Positions 575-33,826 of a DNA stretch of 36,464 nucleotides are shown piece by piece. The DNA is from a virus. The notes under the pieces were generated by a model. The model was not told the DNA's origin. It searched no databases and was given only the letters and a program-made list of their open reading frames with translations. The first letter of the stretch is position 1; the number at the start of each line of letters is the position of its first letter. A program made the position numbers and the translations under genes. Location of the stretch: IMG/VR virus record IMGVR_UViG_3300037189_017663, positions 1 to 36,464 of that record; one strand, given 5' to 3'.

Positions 575-1321
575 TTACACCATGTTTTCGTATTCTTCAG
601 GGAAATTTAGCTTAGATATGTTTTTGTAGTGTTTCCAACACTCTTCGTCGTAAGCCTTTGCCGCTTCTTCTTGTGTTGCAAAAGTTCCCAATTTTATGTC
701 TTTTTTATTTACACGAATGCATGCGCTCCATGGGCGCTCTTTTGATCCTTGTCCTAGACCGACTCCTTTATACTTACTAGAAAAATTCCTAACAACCTGT
801 ATGTATGTTTTGAATTTAGTTTCTTCTTCTTCTCGCTCCGGCTCTGGAAAATTTAAGTTCGCGAACTCCCCAAAAAATTCTTTAGCTGCTCTGTCATAGG
901 CTTTGGCAGCGCCGTATTCACAGTAGTAACATCCGAGGGAGACCTTTTTTCCTCCGTGGCGTATCCTTGCCACCCATGGTTTTAACACACCGCATTTTCT
1001 TAAATAGACTCCTTTGTGTTGAGATTTTGTATTAGATGGCTTTTTCGAGTTTCTGATGTTTTCTAGGGTTGTACATATTCTTAAATTTTGAATCCTATTA
1101 TCTAATTTATTGCCATTTATATGGTCTACAATTTCCCCGCTTTTTGCGCCAAGAATAGCTCTATGAAGAAGACAGTTTTCCATCTTACCATCTTCTCGCC
1201 GCTCCATAGATTTTACATACAGCGTAGGCATTACATACCACTTCTTATTTAGCATAAGCGGCAAAAACTCTTCATCAATTAAAACGCGATGCTCGCCTAT
1301 CATATAAGCAATCGTAGACAT
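575..1321 (-). CDS. HNH homing endonuclease with two AP2 domains
   Basis: 248 residues. The HNH core is at residues 50-90, with H53, the D66-H67 pair in VDHINGNKLDN, N75 and N79. Two AP2-type DNA-binding domains follow: residues 100-160 (HKGVYLRK ... LNFPE) and 181-242 (YKGVGLG ... LNFPEE), joined by an acidic linker. This is the usual build of phage free-standing homing endonucleases, which nick or cut a target and promote their own copying. Two AP2 domains are less usual than one and suggest a longer recognition site. The start at 1321 follows GGAGG by only 4 bases. The gene lies just behind a terminator and has its own promoter-like sequence, so it looks like an inserted selfish unit between the synthase cassette and the junction gene. 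It is not expected to be needed for growth. Confidence 0.88.
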   Translation of the reverse strand: MSTIAYMIGEHRVLIDEEFLPLMLNKKWYVMPTLYVKSMERREDGKMENCLLHRAILGAKSGEIVDHINGNKLDNRIQNLRICTTLENIRNSKKPSNTKSQHKGVYLRKCGVLKPWVARIRHGGKKVSLGCYYCEYGAAKAYDRAAKEFFGEFANLNFPEPEREEEETKFKTYIQVVRNFSSKYKGVGLGQGSKERPWSACIRVNKKDIKLGTFATQEEAAKAYDEECWKHYKNISKLNFPEEYENMV

Positions 1322-1447: not shown

Positions 1448-2896
1448 TTATTTTACCGGATTGCTATTAAGAATGCTAGAAGCTGACAGCCAGAAATTAA
1501 AGAATGAAAACAATACTGGCATGATTAAGTTGACGGAGTTAATTTTGCCGTAAGCTTGCCAAGCGCCAAAAAGAATCGAAAGCAAACAAATAGTAGACCA
1601 TACAGAACAAAGCCAAAGAAACGACGCATACCTAGAGCCTCCTGATTTACTCGCTCCAGTGGGCACCCAGAGCATAGTGCTATTAAAAAGTTTATCTTTT
1701 AGTGCAAAAAAATGTGCATAGTAAGATACATGTCTAAGCTTAAGAAAGTCAAAATCTTTATTGGAATAATTAGACCAATGCCAAACGCCAATCGAGCCAA
1801 ATAGGAACGATGGGACATAGAAGACCATGTTAAACCAATGAAGATTTTCAGGGTAAAAATTGACTATTATCATCGAAGGCAAGTTTAAAAGAAAGATGCC
1901 TATCGCCGATGAAAAGTAGTAGATCATTCCTGAAAAGTAGCAAAGTTTTTGCATCTTGGTTAATGAAGATCCCCAAAACTCTTTGCTAAATAAAAGACTC
2001 ATACTGCCAGAACACCAACGGTATTGTTGATTAAAAAATGCTTTTAGATTGTCAGGGCACCTACCAACTGAAAGGTTTTCTGGAATGTATTTTATCTTTC
2101 CGCCAGCATTGACAAGGGTAAATCCCGTCCATACGTCTTCGGAGTGCTGCACTTGACGGAATCCCCCGACATTTTCAAGGCTAGATCGGCGATAAACAGC
2201 GCAAGAGCCCACGCAAATACTGCCACCATGACGATCACGAGAAGTTTGCACCAAACGGTAGAACAGCTCTTGGACATATCCTGATCCCCTTTCAATCCAA
2301 TTCATGTTATCTTTGACTTCAAAGTATTGCGGTGTCTGAACAATAGCTATTTTTTTATCAAACATCATAAACGGAACGGTTTCCTTAAGAAACTCTTTCT
2401 TTGGTGCAAAATCCGCATCGAGTACCAAAATAAACTCGCCGCTTGTTTGCTTGAAAGCATTTAAAAGATTGCCTGCCTTCTTAAACTCATTTGTTTTTCT
2501 TCTGATGTACTTGAATCCAAAACTCAGCGCCAAGGGAAGCATCGAATCATTTTTTCCGTCGTCTAGCACATAAACATTCAATTTATCTTTCGGCCAATCA
2601 AGCTTTTCTGTGTGTCGCCAGGCATCTAAGATAATAGCGACATTCTCGCCACAGATAGGAAGGAAAACATCGACAGTTGGAAATTCTTTTAAAGGCTTCC
2701 AATTTGTCTTTATGTACTTTTTGCCACTTAAAAGTATGCCATATGAAACAATTAAATAGATGCATATCACGCCAAAGAATGGCACAAAGACATACATTTC
2801 AGGCCTGGAAAGCGCAAACGAAAACGCTCCTATCGAAAGGAGCGCAAACGAAAGTATCCCAGGAATGAGATAGGAATACTTAGATTTTTCTACCAT
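1448..2896 (-). CDS. Processive family-2 glycosyltransferase (BcsA/cellulose synthase-like membrane protein)
   Basis: 482 residues. Two hydrophobic segments near the N-terminus (about 9-29 and 34-56) are followed by a GT-A catalytic domain (about 72-300), then several membrane segments (about 318-345, 355-372, 424-446, 455-476). The motifs of processive GT2 enzymes are all present in order: D112-D113-G, KAGN 140-143, DAD 160-162, QTPQ 187-190, the acceptor-site acid in HSED 251-254, and QQYRW 290-294. Known members use UDP-sugars to build and extrude beta-linked polysaccharides such as cellulose or hyaluronan. The sugar made here cannot be read from sequence. There is no PilZ domain, so no c-di-GMP control is expected. 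The start overlaps the previous stop by 7 bases, implying coupled translation with the secreted protein upstream. The core looks intact, and such an enzyme is unusual in a phage. Confidence 0.9.
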   Translation of the reverse strand: MVEKSKYSYLIPGILSFALLSIGAFSFALSRPEMYVFVPFFGVICIYLIVSYGILLSGKKYIKTNWKPLKEFPTVDVFLPICGENVAIILDAWRHTEKLDWPKDKLNVYVLDDGKNDSMLPLALSFGFKYIRRKTNEFKKAGNLLNAFKQTSGEFILVLDADFAPKKEFLKETVPFMMFDKKIAIVQTPQYFEVKDNMNWIERGSGYVQELFYRLVQTSRDRHGGSICVGSCAVYRRSSLENVGGFRQVQHSEDVWTGFTLVNAGGKIKYIPENLSVGRCPDNLKAFFNQQYRWCSGSMSLLFSKEFWGSSLTKMQKLCYFSGMIYYFSSAIGIFLLNLPSMIIVNFYPENLHWFNMVFYVPSFLFGSIGVWHWSNYSNKDFDFLKLRHVSYYAHFFALKDKLFNSTMLWVPTGASKSGGSRYASFLWLCSVWSTICLLSILFGAWQAYGKINSVNLIMPVLFSFFNFWLSASSILNSNPVK

Positions 2897-3551: not shown

Positions 3552-4478
3552 TCAAACGATGACAGTCTTTAGATACTCTCTAAACTCAGGCATCCCTAGC
3601 GATAAAGATCCGCCTGGATCATCCTTCCAATCTGGGAGTATGCAGTCGTGGCCGACTACATTATCTATGCTAAATTTAGGACAATGATCTTTCAAATACT
3701 GCACTAGTCCAACTAAAGCCTTTTCCTGAGCTTCTGTGTATTTGGCATAGTAGCCAGGGGTTTGCAGCCTGTTGCCTAGAAATTGTCTTATTTGATCCTC
3801 AGGCCAAGCTGGACCTTTAGGGTTTCCTGTACGGTCAAGATTAAACCAAGGGTAAAATTTATTTTCAAATCTAGTTAACTTCCCTGGACACATGATTTCA
3901 ATGCCTAAATGTGTTCTATGGTGACTTGTGGCACAATGGTATCCCCACCGATTCAGCTCATGCGTTTTGTAAATTGTTCCATCGCTAGCAAGTACCCAAT
4001 AGGCATAGGGAGGGTGATCAGGATCGTTAGCCATGTCAATAGCTCCGCTTGGATCTGTACTTTGTTGCCCTGCAGTGTAATGGACGACTAAGCCTTCCAG
4101 CTCCATTGGTCCCTGTGTCTTATGTCTAACCACGCTTTCAACTATTTTTGCCTCGATTTTTCCAGGCACAGGTTTAGCCATTGGTTCAACCTTAATCTCT
4201 TGAGCTCTCTTACAGACATAAGAAGCCGAGCCTTTCAAATCATTTGCTAAAACCTGAAGAGATCTAGCGCTGCCTGCGCCTTTGAAAGTGTATGACAGCG
4301 TCCAGGTACGATAGCCTAGTTTAAGGCTGTCTTCCTCAAATGTAGCCTTCCCAATCTCAAAGCCGTCAACGGTTAGGGTGATTCCAGCGATTCCTAAGCC
4401 ACATTCTCCCCAAAATACAAATTTTTCTCCGGCTTTAATATCTTTCGGGTCTTCCATTCTTACAAAGTAGCTATCCAT
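3552..4478 (-). CDS. N-acetylmuramoyl-L-alanine amidase (endolysin)
   Basis: 308 residues. Residues 1 to about 100 form a beta-rich, Ig-like N-terminal domain (KAGEKFVFWGECGLGIAGIT ...). Residues 125-300 form an Amidase_2 (AmpD/PGRP-type) domain. Zinc ligands are most likely H133 in VVHYTAG, H277 in VGHDC and D287 in DDPGG; the H-to-D spacing of 10 matches AmpD. It should cut the amide bond between N-acetylmuramic acid and the stem peptide. There is no signal peptide, so it would need a holin or another route out. The start at 4478 overlaps the previous stop and has AAAGGAG upstream. The N-terminal domain may bind cell wall or help in export. The assignment to lysis is strong; a virion-associated use is the alternative. 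Confidence 0.9.
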   Translation of the reverse strand: MDSYFVRMEDPKDIKAGEKFVFWGECGLGIAGITLTVDGFEIGKATFEEDSLKLGYRTWTLSYTFKGAGSARSLQVLANDLKGSASYVCKRAQEIKVEPMAKPVPGKIEAKIVESVVRHKTQGPMELEGLVVHYTAGQQSTDPSGAIDMANDPDHPPYAYWVLASDGTIYKTHELNRWGYHCATSHHRTHLGIEIMCPGKLTRFENKFYPWFNLDRTGNPKGPAWPEDQIRQFLGNRLQTPGYYAKYTEAQEKALVGLVQYLKDHCPKFSIDNVVGHDCILPDWKDDPGGSLSLGMPEFREYLKTVIV

Positions 4479-6156: not shown

Positions 6157-6657
6157 ATGGCAAGAGACAATATAAGTAATACGCCAGAATATAGGGCGTG
6201 GTGCGGGGCAAAAAGCCGATGTGCCGATAAAAAAGGATATGCTTCGAAGTATTACCGTGACAGGGGGATTACAGTTTGCGACGAGTGGAAATGCGATTTC
6301 CATGCTTTTTTTAAGCACATTGGTCCAAAGCCAACGCCCAAACACACTTTAGACAGAATAGACAATGATCGAGGTTATGAGCCAGGAAATGTTAGGTGGG
6401 CTACAATGACTGCTCAAGCGAGAAATAGAAGGTTGCCATCTCCTAAGCCGCCTAGTGGACCAAAACAGCCGACAAAGGAGGACAAAATGATGATTTCAAA
6501 AATACGGGTTCTGTTGGCAAAAATACCTAAATCTCGGCTTGCATCAGAGCTTGGTGTCCAAAACACTAGTACCATAGACATGTGGACGAGTCGCGGCGTG
6601 GTGCCGGTTAAGTATCATCCCCAAATAGAAAGGCTTTACAATGAATTCTGTAAATGA
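6157..6657 (+). CDS. HNH-type endonuclease domain fused to Cro/YdaS-like helix-turn-helix
   Basis: 166 residues. Residues 10-92 form the phage HNH-like module with C-D-E-W, L-D-R-I-D-N (65-70) and G-Y-E-P-G-N-V-R-W-A-T (73-83), which is closely similar to the second module of the protein at 35286-35984. A proline-rich link (94-106) follows. Residues 111-166 form a short Cro/YdaS-like HTH: ISKIRVLLAKIPKSRLASEL, then the turn and recognition helix around NTSTIDMWTSRGVVP. GAGGA precedes the ATG at 6157. Inside the gene there is a near-perfect ribosome site and start for the HTH part alone (6487). The likely history is an HNH gene that landed upstream of, and fused to, a cro-like gene. It overlaps the next gene by 17 bases. 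Confidence 0.82.
   Translation: MARDNISNTPEYRAWCGAKSRCADKKGYASKYYRDRGITVCDEWKCDFHAFFKHIGPKPTPKHTLDRIDNDRGYEPGNVRWATMTAQARNRRLPSPKPPSGPKQPTKEDKMMISKIRVLLAKIPKSRLASELGVQNTSTIDMWTSRGVVPVKYHPQIERLYNEFCK
6487..6657 (+). CDS. Internal in-frame start: stand-alone Cro/YdaS-like repressor
   Basis: AAAGGAGG (6474-6481) lies 5 bases before an ATG at 6487, in frame with the HNH-HTH fusion and exactly at the domain boundary (residues M111/M112). It would give a 56-residue HTH protein, the usual size of a small Cro-like or YdaS regulator. The position at the head of the rightward operon, facing the divergent control region, is where such a regulator is expected. The ribosome site is among the strongest in the window. 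This is an inferred second product, not a separate frame. Confidence 0.55.
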   Translation: MMISKIRVLLAKIPKSRLASELGVQNTSTIDMWTSRGVVPVKYHPQIERLYNEFCK

Positions 6658-7234
6658 GCTAACGCCAGAGCAATTAAATGATCTTAAAGAGAAGTACAAT
6701 TTAATAATACCAGCGCCACAACCACAACCTGCAAGCGCTATGACATTAAAAGAGCTAGTGGAAGTCTTAGACAGATCAGAGTCCGAGGAAGTAGACTTAA
6801 ATCTAATTCAAGCAGTATTAAAAGCCCTACCTACCAAGGTCGATGGTTGCGCTCAGTATCTCGATTCTCTCGATGATGAAATCACTAGGGCAAAAGACTA
6901 CGCTAAGAAATTCTCAGACCTAGCCAAGCAGATAGAGGCCAGAAAAGAGCGTTTTGAAGGCTATTTAAAGCACTCTATCGAGTCTAATGGCTTCGAAAAG
7001 CTAACAGGCGACGCTTTCCAAATGACGATCAAAAAGAATCCTGCCTCTGTCATTGCCAGGCGAGAAGCCGATGCGGCCGACTCTCTGAATTACCCTAATT
7101 TAGTTACAACTAAAATGACCTTTGCTTGGGACAAAAAAGCCTTGAAAGAGGGCATAGAGTCGGGTGATAAAGTCGCGCTTGGGTTGGCCGATTTAGTGCA
7201 TAAAACATCTTTAAAAGTGGGAATTAAGAAATGA
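6641..7234 (+). CDS. Gp157-family phage protein
   Basis: 197 residues. It matches the siphovirus Gp157 pattern: an N-terminal helical region with T-L-K-E-L-V-E-V-L (about 32-45), a central coiled coil (about 65-115, LDSLDDEITRAKDYAKKFSD then KQIEARKERFEGYLK), and a C-terminal part with F-Q-M-T-I-K-K-N-P-A-S-V and a long V-T-T-K ... W-D-K-K-A-L-K-E. Family members sit next to ERF or RecT-like annealing genes, and their exact role is not settled. AAAGG is 7 bases before the start, and the gene overlaps both neighbours. It begins the recombination trio Gp157-ERF-SSB. Confidence 0.83.
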   Translation: MNSVNELTPEQLNDLKEKYNLIIPAPQPQPASAMTLKELVEVLDRSESEEVDLNLIQAVLKALPTKVDGCAQYLDSLDDEITRAKDYAKKFSDLAKQIEARKERFEGYLKHSIESNGFEKLTGDAFQMTIKKNPASVIARREADAADSLNYPNLVTTKMTFAWDKKALKEGIESGDKVALGLADLVHKTSLKVGIKK

Positions 7235-7893
7235 TCAAAAGTGAAAGCATCAAAGAACTACTAACAGCCCTAGCCAAAGCGCAAGGCAAGATTTCAGCGG
7301 CTAAAAAGGACTCTACTAACCCTCATTTCAAAAGCAAGTATGCTGACCTTGCTAGCTGTTGGGAAGCTATCAAAGAGCCGTTAAGCGTTAATGGGCTGTC
7401 TCTGTCTCAGTGGGTATCTAATTCAGAAAAAGGCCTAAACCTAATTACAATGTTAGGCCACTCAAGCGGCGAATATATTTACAGCGAATACTCGATGCCA
7501 AGTGGTCAGACTTCACAGGCCATTGGCTCGGCTATCACCTATGCTCGGAGATATGCTTTAAGCGCGGCTGTTGGGCTTGTAGCGGACGATGACGATGATG
7601 CTAATGCTGCAAATGAATATCAGAAAAAACAGCCTGAAAGGCAGATCACGAGGGCACCATCTACACTTTCAAAACCAGCTACAATCACCGATATGCAAAT
7701 AATCGAGCTAGTAAGTCAAGCTGCATCTCTAAATGTATCAGAGGCTCAGCTAATAGCATCAAATCAAGGCAAGCCTTTAGAAGAGTGGGACGTTCCAGCA
7801 TACGCGAAGGCGAAAGCGCAACTTCACGCCAAAGAAACAAATCAAAGAATAGCCAAAGAGCAGGCAGAATTGGCGAAAGGGAACAATGTTTAA
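7231..7893 (+). CDS. erf: ERF-family single-strand annealing protein
   Basis: 220 residues. Residues 5-130 fit the ERF family: L-A-K-A-Q-G-K-I-S ... N-P-H-F-K-S-K-Y-A-D-L-A, then G-L-S-L-S-Q-W-V, the block Q-A-I-G-S-A-I-T-Y-A-R-R-Y-A-L (about 93-107) and a run of aspartates after G-L-V-A. ERF proteins anneal complementary single strands and, in P22-like phages, help circularise or recombine the genome. The C-terminal half is variable and charged. The start overlaps the previous stop (ATGA), and SSB follows with an 8-base overlap, as expected for partners on single-stranded DNA. Confidence 0.92.
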   Translation: MIKSESIKELLTALAKAQGKISAAKKDSTNPHFKSKYADLASCWEAIKEPLSVNGLSLSQWVSNSEKGLNLITMLGHSSGEYIYSEYSMPSGQTSQAIGSAITYARRYALSAAVGLVADDDDDANAANEYQKKQPERQITRAPSTLSKPATITDMQIIELVSQAASLNVSEAQLIASNQGKPLEEWDVPAYAKAKAQLHAKETNQRIAKEQAELAKGNNV

Positions 7894-8308
7894 CATCGTA
7901 GCAGTAGGCACCATAGGCAGGATAGAAATAAAGAGCTTACAAAACGGCACTATCATAGCCGAGGGCTCTATTGCCTCTAACCGGCAAGTAAAGGGTGAGA
8001 AGATCACAGACTGGCTCAACTGGAAGTCTTTCGGCAAGACTGCAGAGGTCATTGGCGACTATGTAAAAAAAGGCGATCAGGCTATCTTTTCTGGCAGCCT
8101 ACAGACCGAGTCCTGGGAAAAAGATGGCCAGAAGCAAAGCAAGACTGTGATGATCATAGAGCGCTTTGAGTTTGGTAAGAACAAGCGGGAAGCTGAACAA
8201 GCGACAACAAGCCCACAGTTCACTCAAGGATTTTCTGAAAAAGAACAGCCTGGGACATTTCAGCCTGGCGCGTTTAACAATGTTGACTTTGATTCAATCC
8301 CTTTCTGA
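7886..8308 (+). CDS. ssb: Single-stranded DNA-binding protein
   Basis: 140 residues. Residues 1-105 form an OB-fold of the bacterial SSB type: V-A-V-G-T-I-G-R at the start, then W-L-N-W-K-S-F-G-K-T-A-E and Y-V-K-K-G-D-Q. A flexible Gln/Thr-rich linker and the acidic tail D-F-D-S-I-P-F follow; this tail is the peptide that recruits partner proteins in cellular SSBs. It would protect single-stranded DNA during replication and load annealing or repair proteins. It overlaps ERF (8 bases) and the following small gene (1 base). Confidence 0.95.
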   Translation: MFNIVAVGTIGRIEIKSLQNGTIIAEGSIASNRQVKGEKITDWLNWKSFGKTAEVIGDYVKKGDQAIFSGSLQTESWEKDGQKQSKTVMIIERFEFGKNKREAEQATTSPQFTQGFSEKEQPGTFQPGAFNNVDFDSIPF

Positions 8309-9092: not shown

Positions 9093-9872
9093 TTATACAA
9101 CAGGCGGTAAAACTTTGCCTATTCGCTTTTGAGATAGTTCAAAATATTTAGCATCTAGCTCTATGCCTATGAAGTTTCTTTTAAGGCTAATTGCTTCCTT
9201 GCCAGTGGTTCCACTTCCCATGAAAGGATCTAGCACTGTATCACCTTCGTTAGTCCATGAGATGATATGATCATGAGCCAGCTTGTCGGGGAATATGGCC
9301 GGATGTTCAAAAGCTTCTCTGTCTTTGGTTGTTTTGTTAAAGCCGGTCACATAGCTCCAAACATTGCCCTTTGTTTTTGTTTCTTTGTGAACCCTACCAA
9401 TAGACCAAACATCTCCTAGCCTATCATCATTTTTTCTACATCTAGCCGTTATTTTGTGGCCAGCATATGTACATTTTTCCATAATCGGATTGAATGTCTT
9501 TGGCTTTCCCTTTGAAATGATAAACATGTACTCAAATTTTTGTTCATATCGCATATTGTTTTGTGGCATTTTCTGGGACATATAAATCATCGTGTCATGC
9601 AGGTTTAAGCCTATTTCTTTAAAGTAAAGGGCCTGCCTAAAGCTAGTCCCGCTCTCACTGCCTTTAATAGTAGCATCCCCTACTACCCATACACAGACGC
9701 CGCCAGGCTTTAGCAGTCTTTTAATTTGAAGGGCTACTAGCTGAAACTGTTCAAAGCTTAAACCTTGGTACTTTCTTAAACTGTCATAGGGCGGACTAGT
9801 TAAAACCATGTCAACCGATTCACTGTCTAGCTTGGCCATTTCTGTAATGCAATCGCCTAGGATTAGCTGCAT
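9093..9872 (-). CDS. DNA methyltransferase, beta-class (N4-cytosine or N6-adenine), orphan
   Basis: 259 residues. The catalytic motif T-S-P-P-Y (25-29) precedes the AdoMet-binding motif D-P-F-M-G-S-G-T-T (215-223), the beta-class order. The central part (about 95-200) is the target-recognition region. TSPPY is more usual in N4-cytosine enzymes, whereas N6-adenine ones mostly have DPPY, but the base cannot be fixed from this. No restriction enzyme gene is beside it, so it probably protects phage DNA from host restriction or marks the genome. It sits 9 bases after the initiator-like gene in the same operon; AAAGG is its ribosome site. Confidence 0.93.
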   Translation of the reverse strand: MQLILGDCITEMAKLDSESVDMVLTSPPYDSLRKYQGLSFEQFQLVALQIKRLLKPGGVCVWVVGDATIKGSESGTSFRQALYFKEIGLNLHDTMIYMSQKMPQNNMRYEQKFEYMFIISKGKPKTFNPIMEKCTYAGHKITARCRKNDDRLGDVWSIGRVHKETKTKGNVWSYVTGFNKTTKDREAFEHPAIFPDKLAHDHIISWTNEGDTVLDPFMGSGTTGKEAISLKRNFIGIELDAKYFELSQKRIGKVLPPVV

Positions 9873-9881
9873 ATGATGCCT

Positions 9882-10595
9882 TTAGTTGGTTTCCCCTAAT
9901 CTATCTGCCATGACAATGGTTGACAAGTAGTGCTTGGCCAATGAAATAATATCTTGGCGCTTCTTAGAGTAAGCCCTGATAGGCAGCTTTGTTTTGTCTT
10001 TCATAAAATCAGCCTCTAGCCATTTAAAGAATGCTGGCATCAAATCAAAACCAATTATCTTTTCAATGGAATCCTCGAGCCTCTTCCTCCGAGTCCCAGG
10101 CATTAAAATATGATCAATATTTAGTCCCCCCCTCAGGGGGGTTAGGGTGGGCGATTCTTTCGGCGAATTTTCGCCGTTATTTATATTCTTATATGTATTC
10201 TTATTAGTAGTGGATTTTCCACTAACGATTGGTGGATTTTCCACTAACGATTGGTGGATTTTCCACCTATCTATTTCAAAGTCGATAGCCTCCCACTCCA
10301 CCCATCGGCCATGTTTTCTAATCTCTTTGACTAGATTTTGAGCAGAAAGTCTTTTGATGCTAAGTTTTATTTGGTCAACTGGGTAGCCTTGATTTACTAG
10401 CGTAGCTACACGATAGTGATAGCCAGATGACACATTGTTTAGAACAGCCCAAAGGTAAGCATCAAAGCCAGTGATCTTTTTTTGCTTTACAAAATCCTGC
10501 AGCCAATTAGGTAGTTTTGCGTAACCTGATTTTATTTCGTCTGACAGAAAAACCTCCCTTGATTTCTGGGAGGTCGAATGATATAAATGAATCAT
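9882..10595 (-). CDS. Replication initiator-like protein (lambda O type arrangement)
   Basis: 237 residues. Residues 20-115 look like a winged-helix DNA-binding domain: S-G-Y-A-K-L-P-N-W-L ... D-A-Y-L-W-A-V-L, then H-Y-R-V-A-T-L-V-N-Q-G-Y and R-L-S-A-Q-N-L-V-K-E-I. A polar Asn/Thr/Ser-rich linker (about 115-155) is encoded by the iterons and AT-rich stretch described separately. Residues 160-237 form a helical C-terminal domain. In lambda-type phages the O protein binds iterons inside its own gene and recruits the helicase loader. The same layout is seen here, although the sequence itself is not clearly O. The start at 10595 has AGGA upstream. No helicase or loader gene was found, so the host supplies those. 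Confidence 0.72.
   Translation of the reverse strand: MIHLYHSTSQKSREVFLSDEIKSGYAKLPNWLQDFVKQKKITGFDAYLWAVLNNVSSGYHYRVATLVNQGYPVDQIKLSIKRLSAQNLVKEIRKHGRWVEWEAIDFEIDRWKIHQSLVENPPIVSGKSTTNKNTYKNINNGENSPKESPTLTPLRGGLNIDHILMPGTRRKRLEDSIEKIIGFDLMPAFFKWLEADFMKDKTKLPIRAYSKKRQDIISLAKHYLSTIVMADRLGETN
10126..10266. other. Probable replication origin inside the initiator-like gene
   Basis: The order is: a G/C hairpin (CCCCCC at 10127-10132 pairing GGGGGG at 10136-10141), a second hairpin (CGGCGA at 10161-10166 pairing TCGCCG at 10171-10176), an AT-rich stretch of about 33 bases (10177-10209), and 2.6 tandem 22-bp iterons (10210-10266). Iterons next to an AT-rich unwinding region, inside the initiator gene, is the lambda-type origin plan. 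The iteron unit is not a multiple of three and is read in all three frames, so it is kept for the DNA, not for the protein. Confidence 0.7.
10210..10266. repeat. 22-bp tandem iterons, 2.6 copies
   Basis: Copies at 10210-10231 and 10232-10253 are identical; a third copy is cut to its first 13 bases at 10254-10266. Each begins with the near-palindrome GTGGATTTTCCAC (arms GTGGA and TCCAC), so three identical protein-binding faces are spaced by about two turns of the helix. Confidence 0.9.
10552..10574. repeat. 7-9-7 inverted repeat at the start of the initiator-like gene
   Basis: ACCTCCC (10552-10558) and GGGAGGT (10568-10574) form a perfect 7-base inverted repeat with a 9-base spacer, just inside the initiator gene. 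The geometry and the outer ACCT/AGGT ends match the inverted repeat at 10736-10758, so both could bind one regulator. It could also be a messenger hairpin. Confidence 0.5.
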
Positions 10596-10622: not shown

Positions 10623-10654
10623 CCCCAAAGCGGTAAACTTGTGGGGATTTTTTT
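10623..10654 (+). terminator. Possible rightward terminator upstream of the late block
   Basis: CCCCAAAG (10623-10630) can pair with CTTGTGGGG (10638-10646; one bulged base) over a 7-base loop, followed by A and seven T (10648-10654). It would stop read-through from the left before the late promoter at 10707. The stem is imperfect, so this is a moderate call. Confidence 0.42.
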
Positions 10655-10706
10655 ATTTGTTAAAGGCACCTTACAACTAAAACCAAATTTTCTCAATTGG
10701 AAAAAC

Positions 10707-18484: not shown

Positions 18485-21169
18485 ATGGCAACTTCAGTAA
18501 GCTTTAACGGCGCAACCTATTCCATCCCTGTTGTCGGCGAGCGACAATGGGGTACGAATGTTTCTAACTTTCTAATCGCTGTTGCTGGCAATGCTTTAAG
18601 CAAGGCTGGCGGTACTTTTACGCTGACAACTGCAGATGTAAACTTTGGTACTAGCTATGGCCTTGTAGTCCCATACATCAAAAACAGTGTGGGAAACATT
18701 GCAGCGAGTGGAATCATTCGCTTTGCCAATTTAGACACCATAGCCTGGAGGAATGCTGCTAACAATGCTGACATTGCTTTAAGGCTAAACGCTTCTGACA
18801 GACTGCAGCTTGGTGGCGTAGATATTCCTACCATCTCAAGCACTGATACACTCACAAATAAGACTTTGACCTCTCCAGTTTTAACCACTCCAGCTTTAGG
18901 CACTCCAGCAAGCGGTGTACTAACCAACGCAACAGGACTACCAGTATCAACTGGTATCTCAGGACTTGGTGCAAACGTAGCAACATTCCTAGGTACTCCC
19001 TCTAGTGCCAACCTTGCTTCAGCCCTAACAGATAAAACTGGAACTGGCGTGAATGTCTTTGGCACTGCACCTACTTTAGATAAACCAGTAATCAACCAAG
19101 CAGACGTTACACAAGCGGCTTCAGCGACTACTCCTGCTGCTGGCAAAAGTGCTATCTATGTCAATAGTGGCGACTCTAAGCTTCACGTAGTTGACTCAAG
19201 CGGAAACGATGTGGCTGTAGGATCTGGCTCTAGTGGCCGCAACTATATGGGCGATTGGTACGATGCTGCCAAAGATATTGGCACAGTTACCAACTCTTTA
19301 GGTGATACGCTATCCTCTTCAGACAGAACGGCAAATAAAACCACTTGGGGAAGCTCAAACACTTCCCTTTTGACCATTGCTAGGTCTGCTAATACCTCTC
19401 TAAGACAAGCTTACAACTATCTAATCACTGAAGCTGGTTCATCCTCTGGAGCTTTTATAGAGTCGCCACTATTCACTTTAGATGGTACTGATTTAGGCAA
19501 ACCTGTCTCTATTAGCTTTGATGTAACAGGTAACGCGGCAGACGGTGATTATCAGACATATATTTGTCGCTATAACTCTTCCAATATTTTGCAGGAGAGA
19601 ATTGTAGTTGCAGGTAATGCCTCTACTACTTCACCTTACAGCGCAAAATTGCCTACAGGTACTACAACTTTAAATGGTTTCTTTGTACCAAGTAGTACAA
19701 GTACAGATCAGTATGCCTTGAGGATTGTAAGCAATAACTCTTCAGCGGCAAGTTTAAGAATTGATACCATTTTCATTGGCCCTCAGCCGATTAGAGTGGG
19801 TGCGGCGATTACTGATCCAATCGCTTGGACGCCAACAGGGTCTTGGTCTACCAACACAACGTACACTGGTGTCTATTCCAGAATGGGTAAATTCGCTGTA
19901 ATTGAAGCCAAGCTTTCATTAGCTGGTGCACCTACAGCCGCAGCATTAACTATTAATATGCCAGCAGGCATGACTATTGACACCGCAGCTATGGTTGGAT
20001 TTGTTTCCGCCGATGACCAGTCTTTAGGGTTAGGAACAGCGGTTGACAACGGAACTAACAACTATTCTTTAAAAGTGGGCTATCAATCGACAACCTCGGT
20101 CAGAGTATTCGCAACAAACGCCGGTGGTACATATGGATTGGGTAATGTAGTTAATGCTACCGTACCGATTACGTTTGGTGCATCCGATTCAGTGAGCGTA
20201 AGATGGATGGTTCCAATTGTTGAATGGTCATCCAACGTAACCATGGCAGATCGAGCGGTGGAAGAATGGGCAAGCAACAGCAACACAGCTGATGCCTCTG
20301 ATTCCTCATCATTTGTTTACGGCCCAGGTGGATCATCCACTCCTGGAGCGTTAACTGGAACACAGTCTAAAAGAGTTAGATTTACAACACCCATACAACC
20401 TACAGACACGCTCATTCTAGAGTTTATGAATGCTTCTGTGGACACAAATCTGTGGTTGCCTGCGAGCGGCAATTATTGGGGTACACTGGCATATCAGCAG
20501 CAACTATCTAATGCCTATGGTGTCTACGTCCGGAAGGTAAACGCTACCGATGCTGATGTGTTCTTCTCTGCAAATGCACAGACTAGTTCAGGCGTTTATG
20601 GAGCGGCGGGCACTTCGTGGTCTTCCATAACCAACACTAAATGGCGAGTCCGTAAAGTCTCAGGCGGTGCACAAGTTGGCTATCCAATCTCCTCCGCTAA
20701 CATAGTCGGTAGGGTTGATGGTAATGCGCCTGCTACGGGGATGGTGGGGGAGCTAATAGAAACTGCTTCCTTTAGTGACTATACAACCACTACCTCAGAA
20801 GCTGACGTTACAGGTGCAAGCATAACCCTTACCCCAGGTAGATGGCGTGTGTTTTATGCTCTAGCGGCTAATGCTACAACAGGTAGCTCCTCTGGGAATA
20901 TAACCTATACAGAAGTTAGGGTGACAGATTCTTCTAATGCTGTCTTAACTAAGACAATCAAAAATTTGTACGCACAAAGTCCAGCTACTGGAACTAATAT
21001 GGTTATTATTGGGTCACTAAGCGCAGAAGTGGTAATCACTGTAACTACAACTACAACCTATAAATTAAGGGCGAAGCATACAAATGGATCTGGTAGTGGT
21101 AGCGGTTCTATATATGGTACAGCGGCTTCATTAGGTAACGCTAATTTCCATGCTATCAGAATCGCCTAA
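18485..21169 (+). CDS. Tail fibre or appendage protein
   Basis: 894 residues, Thr/Ser/Ala/Gly-rich throughout. Residues 120-160 carry the phage-fibre repeat [24 protein letters not shown] (in two overlapping parts), and about 215-240 has the S-A-I-Y-V-N-S-G-D motif often seen near it. The middle (about 255-435) looks like a jelly-roll or carbohydrate-binding region. The end (about 755-894) is beta-rich with [17 protein letters not shown]. It likely binds the host surface. It lies between the coat-side genes and the connector, where many podoviruses have small head genes, so its place is odd for a fibre; a head-fibre role is possible. Confidence 0.75.
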
Positions 21170-32662: not shown

Positions 32663-33826
32663 ATGCCAGGTTTCGGTAGTTGGGATTCATACATAGCGGC
32701 GGTTTCTGCAGGGCAAAAATATCGCGCCGATTGGAACAAAAACTTTAACCCGACTACTGCAGCCGTGGGCGGTGAATATCATTTCATGACAAGGGGAGCA
32801 GGCAATCCTCCTGCAGATGCTCTGTTTAACACTGGAACCAACTTAACTTGGCAGCCAGTTTATGACACGACTACCAACGCAAGTTCCATTCAACATGGTG
32901 GTAGCGTCTATCCCTATTACAAATACATTGGCAATGCCTCAGCTTTTTCGGCTGCAGCTACTACGATGCCCTCAGTTTTAACCTTAGTGGATCTCTTAGG
33001 ATTCTACCGGGTGACTTCAGTAACCACGACTACGGCTCAATCACTTACCAACTCGATCTCTTCAGTGACAAATACGATCACTTCAGTAGACGCTGGCGCC
33101 GACACCGTGACTCACACATTCTATGCTCTATTAACAGGTACTAGAGTGCAATTGACCACGACTACTACGCTACCAGCGGGTCTATCCCTTGCTACTGATT
33201 ACTATGTAGTGAAGGTGACAGACACAACTTGCAAATTCGCCACTTCTTACGCTAACGCTATCGCTGGGACGGTGGTCAACATCACCGATGCGGGCACTGG
33301 AACCCATACTATTAACACAGTGCTTCCTCGCTACACTAACGGCGCGGGTGTCCAAGCTGTGATGTGGAACACTAACGCCACGGCTTTGGGTGCTGCCACT
33401 CCAAACTTGTCATTGCCTCAATACACGAATGCGGTGCAAGCTACCGGTAGGGCAACTCCGACAGTGCTACCCATTGGAAAAACTGCGGCCAGTAATACCT
33501 TGGTGCTCTATTCAGGTACGGGATCGGGCAAATATGGCCCCTATGTCCCTCAGCAAAATGGTGATACGGGCATAGCAAAAGTGGATCAGGTCCAACTCTC
33601 TGTTTCCTACGTTTCAGGGGAGTTTTCTATCGCTTTAGTTAGGCCAATTTTGACCATGCCTATGACTACTATTGGCTTAGCCTCAGAAAGAGAGCTTTGG
33701 TCACAAGTAACTGGCGGCGCTCAAAGAATCTATGATGGCGCGGCTCTCTATTGGATGCTTTACAGCGCGGTGAATACTCCGACTAACTCACCGTTTTTTG
33801 GACACCTTGACTTTGTTTGGAACTAA
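32663..33826 (+). CDS. Virion structural protein, paralogue B with inserted domain
   Basis: 387 residues. It matches paralogue A over both ends: D-L-L-G-F-Y-R and Q-S-L-T-N before, V-L-P-R-Y-T-N-G-A-G after, then Q-N-G-D-T-G-I, I-Y-D-G-A-A-L and a final F-F-G-H-L-D-F-V-W-N. Between them residues of about 131-217 form a beta domain (T-S-V-D-A-G-A-D-T-V-T-H ... L-P-A-G-L-S-L-A-T-D-Y-Y-V-V-K-V-T ... T-D-A-G-T-G-T-H-T-I) that also occurs in the tail hub at about 244-322. The ribosome site is AAGGAG. A clean domain insertion after gene duplication. Confidence 0.75.
   Translation: MPGFGSWDSYIAAVSAGQKYRADWNKNFNPTTAAVGGEYHFMTRGAGNPPADALFNTGTNLTWQPVYDTTTNASSIQHGGSVYPYYKYIGNASAFSAAATTMPSVLTLVDLLGFYRVTSVTTTTAQSLTNSISSVTNTITSVDAGADTVTHTFYALLTGTRVQLTTTTTLPAGLSLATDYYVVKVTDTTCKFATSYANAIAGTVVNITDAGTGTHTINTVLPRYTNGAGVQAVMWNTNATALGAATPNLSLPQYTNAVQATGRATPTVLPIGKTAASNTLVLYSGTGSGKYGPYVPQQNGDTGIAKVDQVQLSVSYVSGEFSIALVRPILTMPMTTIGLASERELWSQVTGGAQRIYDGAALYWMLYSAVNTPTNSPFFGHLDFVWN

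Follow-up and report, generated by a model that had tools for sequence, protein, structure and literature searches.

The 36,464-base stretch of DNA analyzed here, referred to below as the window, very probably carries the phage's theta-type replication origin inside its own initiator gene, in the part that codes for the linker of the protein. The gene for this initiator (Rep, 237 aa) lies at 9882-10595 on the minus strand. In our best reading, the putative origin is of the lambda/P22 type in layout, with homology to lambda O not detectable by sequence for the window Rep. This upholds the original prediction that a lambda-like origin lies within the initiator gene: in anatomy the locus agrees with P22 gene 18 and lambda O, and two related phages display the same architecture with other iterons.

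The first 87 bases of the window are identical to its last 87, a terminal repeat from which we inferred a circular phage genome; terminase, portal and head protein genes are among its genes. A terminase search of IMG/VR yielded two relatives, L003 and L004 (88% and 81% terminase identity to the window, respectively), giving a comparison set of three phages. The L004 record (G002) is circular too, with a 123-bp terminal repeat, and is largely syntenic with the window. In both relatives, rep occupies the same map position as in the window but points the other way, and the next gene encodes a DnaB-type helicase. Among named phages in the collection, the nearest kin was the record of a Silvanigrella phage (26-28% identity), leaving the group without a close isolate, and a search of GTDB genomes for a host with the terminase profile returned 136 candidates, of which none was confirmed.

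Several genes outside the replication locus were recorded as well. The window encodes a 482-aa family-2 glycosyltransferase with cellulose-synthase-like similarity (1448-2896, minus strand; PF00535 5.9e-23, PF03552 1.9e-12) and an HNH endonuclease with an AP2 domain, possibly a homing endonuclease (575-1321, minus strand), both unmatched in the relative G002. L003 carries a 369-aa TnpB/Cas12f-like protein (1644-2753, minus strand; PF07282 2e-16, PF01385 1.4e-10) and, in the region 1505-2753, a CRISPR-like mini-array that follows this gene and overlaps its end. The mini-array has an exact period of 66 nt and is made up of two 36-nt repeats, a third repeat that is truncated, and two spacers of 30 nt. 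Neither spacer is closely matched in the window, the rest of L003 or G002 (best 20/30).

Iterons, AT-rich tract and palindromes inside rep

TRF recovered the predicted 22-bp iterons, each with its palindrome, as an array at 10210-10266 (period 22, 2.6 copies, 100% matches). Exact copies of the dyad GTGGATTTTCCAC are confined, within the window, to 10210, 10232 and 10254; a variant with 2 mismatches is present at 20328. The 13-bp dyad is complete three times, whereas the 22-bp unit amounts to only 2.6 copies. Along the minus strand, where the dyad reads GTGGAAAATCCAC, dyad 1 lies at 10254-10266 (aa 110-114), dyad 2 at 10232-10244 (aa 118-122) and dyad 3 at 10210-10222 (aa 125-129). In none of 300 dinucleotide shuffles of the window did a 13-mer, or so much as an 8-mer, recur three times with equal spacing below 60.

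Since 22 is not divisible by three, the dyads are read in different codon phases (2, 0 and 1) and give rise to the peptides RWKIH, VENPP and SGKST, just as had been noticed from the sequence. A repeat kept for its linker peptide would fit the position of the array inside a coding region whose frame stays open. We nevertheless give this explanation next to no chance, because the 22-bp unit shifts the frame every time, so that one repeat yields three different peptides, and because in the relatives both the sequences and the peptides differ while the spacing is equal. The earlier claim that DNA rather than protein is conserved here is borne out by the same two observations.

The relatives' arrays also lie in the linker-coding part of rep and have a 22-23-bp period. 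L004 has five copies of the GGTTCAAAATGAACC type (three perfect, two with 3 mismatches), and L003 has three copies of TATGGCGGAAACGTACATA and a weaker inverted copy (6 mismatches of 19). TRF arrays of period 20-24 were confined to rep in each of the three phages (in L004, within the 17,380 of 31,956 bases covered). A search of IMG/VR for the doubled-iteron pattern returned none. Some of the other relatives, related through the methyltransferase and VRR-nuclease genes, have arrays of period 14-30, in other genes, and reading L011 and L012 by eye beside the methyltransferase revealed no Rep-like gene. The DnaA box TTATCCACA was found neither near the window array nor in L003 rep; L004 rep contains one consensus box, at 4271 on the minus strand, just past the iterons, a single case.

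On the coding (minus) strand, the iterons are followed by an AT-rich tract and then by palindromes. The tract, predicted as a 33-base stretch beside the iterons, lies directly 3' of the last iteron at 10177-10209 (minus strand; 29/33 A/T), contains a 12-nt tandem repeat and is the presumed DNA-unwinding element. By nearest-neighbour energy, the weakest 30-bp duplex of all 36,464 bases begins at 10177. The rep genes of L003 and L004 do not have their weakest duplex beside the iterons, which counts against a general rule. The two strong hairpins that had been noted are also present: a GC-rich palindrome, CGGCGAAAATTCGCCG (CGGCGAATTTTCGCCG), adjoins the AT-rich tract at 10161-10176, and a GC palindrome, CCCCCCTGAGGGGGG (of the CCCCCCTCAGGGGGG type), lies at 10127-10141, both on the minus strand. 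Co-folded as DNA, the two gave z = -3.45, which none of 200 shuffles equaled; the palindrome at 10127-10141 may be under protein constraint, since it encodes TPLRGG. GC skew, which had been suggested as a check on the position of the origin, gave no origin signal, with no turn or mark at 10.2 kb. The TA skew turns at 10,661, where gene orientation switches too.

Likeness to the origins of lambda and P22

As controls, annotated lambda O and P22 gene 18 were run through the same script as the window. P22 gene 18 has dyad iterons of about 20 bp mid-gene, an AT-rich repeat tract directly 3' and then a C5/G5 palindrome, CCCCCTAAAGGGGG, in the position that CCCCCCTGAGGGGGG takes in the window; the P22 record annotates a rep_origin at 32840-32984 within this gene. 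This shared order of array, tract and palindrome is what points to an intragenic origin of the lambda/P22 type. In lambda O, too, the iterons lie mid-gene and in several codon phases, each with a central A-tract; the record places them at 39034, 39054, 39078 and 39101, a spacing of 20, 24 and 23. The weakest 30 bp of the gene fall at nt 446 in lambda O and nt 445 in P22 gene 18, both just 3' of the iterons. The window thus has, like an intragenic origin, at least three dyad iterons of about 20 bp between the DNA-binding and C-terminal domains, and an easily melted AT-rich tract directly 3' of them, in agreement with both controls.

The comparison also brought out differences. Sequence similarity between the initiators of P22 or lambda and the window Rep was not detected, and the iterons and their strict 22-bp spacing are peculiar to the window. 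The lambda/P22 module includes a gene for a partner helicase (P22 gp12) or a loader (lambda P), which the window lacks: the DnaB-type gene downstream in P22 (gene 12) has a counterpart in L003 and L004 and none in the window, and the loader gene P, which adjoins O in lambda, is likewise without equivalent there. Helicase-less replisome organizers with internal repeats, reliant on the host's helicase or loader, occur in phages of Gram-positive bacteria; the window Rep would resemble them in both respects. Iterons and an AT-rich tract in the middle of lambda O are described in one report (PMC7466680). According to another, the initiators of lambda, P22 and L, which are distant relatives of one another, hold differing iterons, and phage L is reported to follow a plan like that of P22 with other repeats (PMC8022706).

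Rep domains, helicase genes and exchange at the locus

Rep is predicted to comprise an N-terminal winged-helix DNA-binding domain (about aa 24-105), a low-complexity linker, whose coding part contains the putative origin, and a distinct C-terminal domain of roughly 80 aa (about aa 155-237). AF2 modelled the N-terminal 111 aa as a winged helix (mean pLDDT 70.7, core blocks 71-91); the model of the whole protein is poor (mean pLDDT 47.7), and the fold of the C-terminus cannot be read from it. The DNA-binding domains of the window, L003 and L004 Rep are homologous (hhalign probability 98%, E 2.6e-13), and homology of the window C-terminal domain to the C-termini of L003 and L004 was not detectable. 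Against Pfam and NCBIfam, the window Rep matched no family at E up to 1, and its one PHROG match was a family of unknown function at 0.12. L003 Rep weakly matched PHROG replication-initiation families (phrog_270 at 4e-4, the 'O-like' phrog_678 at 4.7e-3), as did L004 Rep (phrog_270 at 1.8e-3). Searches for homologues of the window Rep gave none in the phage collection, 10 candidates in IMG/VR and 55 in GTDB genomes, with 0 confirmed in either, and the Rep proteins of L003 and L004 likewise found none in the phage collection. Matches to replication initiators in BFVD had E above 0.001 and were not taken as proof. In the PDB, a sequence search with the profile of the domain gave matches at chance level only; on re-alignment, 4pt7 ('Structure of initiator', Z 7.5) and 4pql (Z 7.4), both presumably plasmid RepA proteins, tie with many unrelated winged helices.

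The fold of this domain bears on whether the dyads are merely operators, at which Rep or another winged-helix protein represses transcription while the origin lies elsewhere. Its nearest PDB folds are mostly winged-helix regulators, repressors of the PerR, Fur and MarR families (none at E <= 0.001), though the fold is common, and dyads are typical of dimeric repressors. We hold this to be quite improbable in view of the placement of the array, which is mid-gene, more than 300 bp inside rep and away from its promoter, and adjoins the weakest duplex of the genome. Moreover, arrays of 22-23 bp with new sequences recur at this site in the relatives, as they do in lambda and P22.

The reading of the array as part of an origin also accords with how rep varies between L003 and L004. 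Their rep leaders are 88-97% identical and their flanks agree mostly at 0.88-0.98 in DNA (about 90%). Over the N part of Rep (DNA-binding domain plus iterons), only 34/146 aa are identical (23%) and DNA identity falls to about 0.27-0.45. The C part, in turn, matches at 109/116 aa, and together with the helicase gene is mostly about 85-98% identical in DNA. Because the binding domain and its sites diverged as one block inside conserved flanks, they appear to behave as a single specificity cassette. Such divergence is expected if an origin within the gene keeps both together.

The helicase half of the locus differs between the phages. Downstream of rep, L003 and L004 encode a DnaB-type helicase (PF03796, E about 2e-63). 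Six-frame searches for PF03796 (DnaB_C) succeeded in 2/2 relatives and in 0/1 for the window, and phrog_239, present in both relatives, was likewise not found in the window; recovery of both families in the relatives served as the positive control. PF01695 (IstB/DnaC), PF06992 (lambda P) and PF07261 (DnaB_2/DnaD) were found in 0/3 records. The prediction that the genome lacks a helicase or loader gene thus holds for the five families tested (PF03796, PF01695, PF06992, PF07261 and phrog_239), an absence that is unusual for an origin of the lambda/P22 kind. Directly downstream of rep, where the relatives have DnaB, the window has a DNA N6/N4 methyltransferase gene (9093-9872, minus strand). L004 retains the last 23 codons of this gene (100% aa identity), beside the VRR-nuclease gene cluster, and L003 retains about 31 matching bases at the remnant site. 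The remnant in L004 indicates that replication modules have been exchanged at this locus, in a second exchange that sets the window apart from both relatives, and we infer that the rep-dnaB lineages descend from ancestors with the methyltransferase at the site.

These results also speak to whether the origin is vestigial, the module having lost its helicase and the phage replicating by recombination or from another site. Consistent with this, the helicase and tested loader families are absent and Erf, SSB and Gam-like genes are present in the window (6641-8308). However, G002, which bears DnaB, has Erf, SSB and Gam as well; the three dyads are identical and rep is intact; and, to judge from the methyltransferase remnant, the helicase-bearing phages had ancestors with the window-type arrangement, rather than that arrangement being a decayed form of theirs. 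A vestigial origin is accordingly very hard to credit, and we retain a functional origin within rep as the preferred reading.

The rep leader and a proposed mode of initiation

The rep leader is conserved in 3/3 phages and is predicted to form two hairpins, each kept in both relatives, where a single base pair differs from the window in a compensatory manner. P1 (CCCCACAAG...CTTTGGGG; 10623-10646, minus strand) has an A-T/T-A pair, and P2 (ACCTCCC...GGGAGGT; 10552-10574, minus strand), which is followed by a T-run, has a C-G/T-A pair. P2 pairs a Shine-Dalgarno-like GGAGG that precedes the TTG start of rep in L003 and L004, and the counterpart of this codon in the window is an in-frame CTG. In all three phages, a short upstream frame begins at the conserved AGTCCAATGAT; it is out of frame with rep in L003 (MIGLYHRPPK...) and L004 (MIGLYPRPPK...) and in frame with rep in the window (MIHLYHSTSQK...). 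This in-frame leader, together with the CTG at the relatives' start, makes the start of the window Rep ambiguous, with the ATG at 10595 and the CTG at 10547-10545 as the two candidates. Searching IMG/VR for the leader pattern returned only L003 and L004, both already known, and Rfam gave a single chance-level match at the locus (E 0.96). Translational control of the initiator by this two-hairpin leader is possible; the comparison comprises two effectively independent sequences, which do not suffice for a firm claim about RNA.

Taken together, these features suggest how initiation might proceed. The hairpin over the ribosome-binding site would probably hold rep expression down. Rep dimers would bind the three dyads through the N-terminal winged-helix domain, and because the 22-bp spacing corresponds to two helical turns, the dyads would lie on one face of the DNA. 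Bound Rep would then wrap the DNA and open the neighbouring AT-rich tract of 33 bp, after which its C-terminal domain would bring in the replicative helicase. As the window has neither a helicase nor a recognised loader gene, the recruited helicase would most likely be the host's DnaB; that the Rep C-terminus recruits it, directly or with the assistance of a loader, we regard as an even proposition. More tentatively, and with the balance somewhat against it, the C-terminal domain may be a new, self-sufficient helicase-recruiting domain, and the group may have switched between phage-encoded and host helicase by trading a C-terminus together with a DnaB gene for this domain, while keeping the iteron-in-linker design and the rep leader. 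If true, this would constitute a natural experiment in how initiators change their source of helicase.

The origin is of a known kind, and its unusual point is the absence of the partner helicase gene. The group, which is without a close isolate, offers what appears to be a clear case of an initiator's DNA-binding domain and origin traveling together by virtue of the origin's location within the gene, with a helicase half of the replication module that would be exchangeable separately. A pair of circular, syntenic genomes, one with and one without DnaB, makes the recruitment of a helicase by a phage that does not encode one testable.
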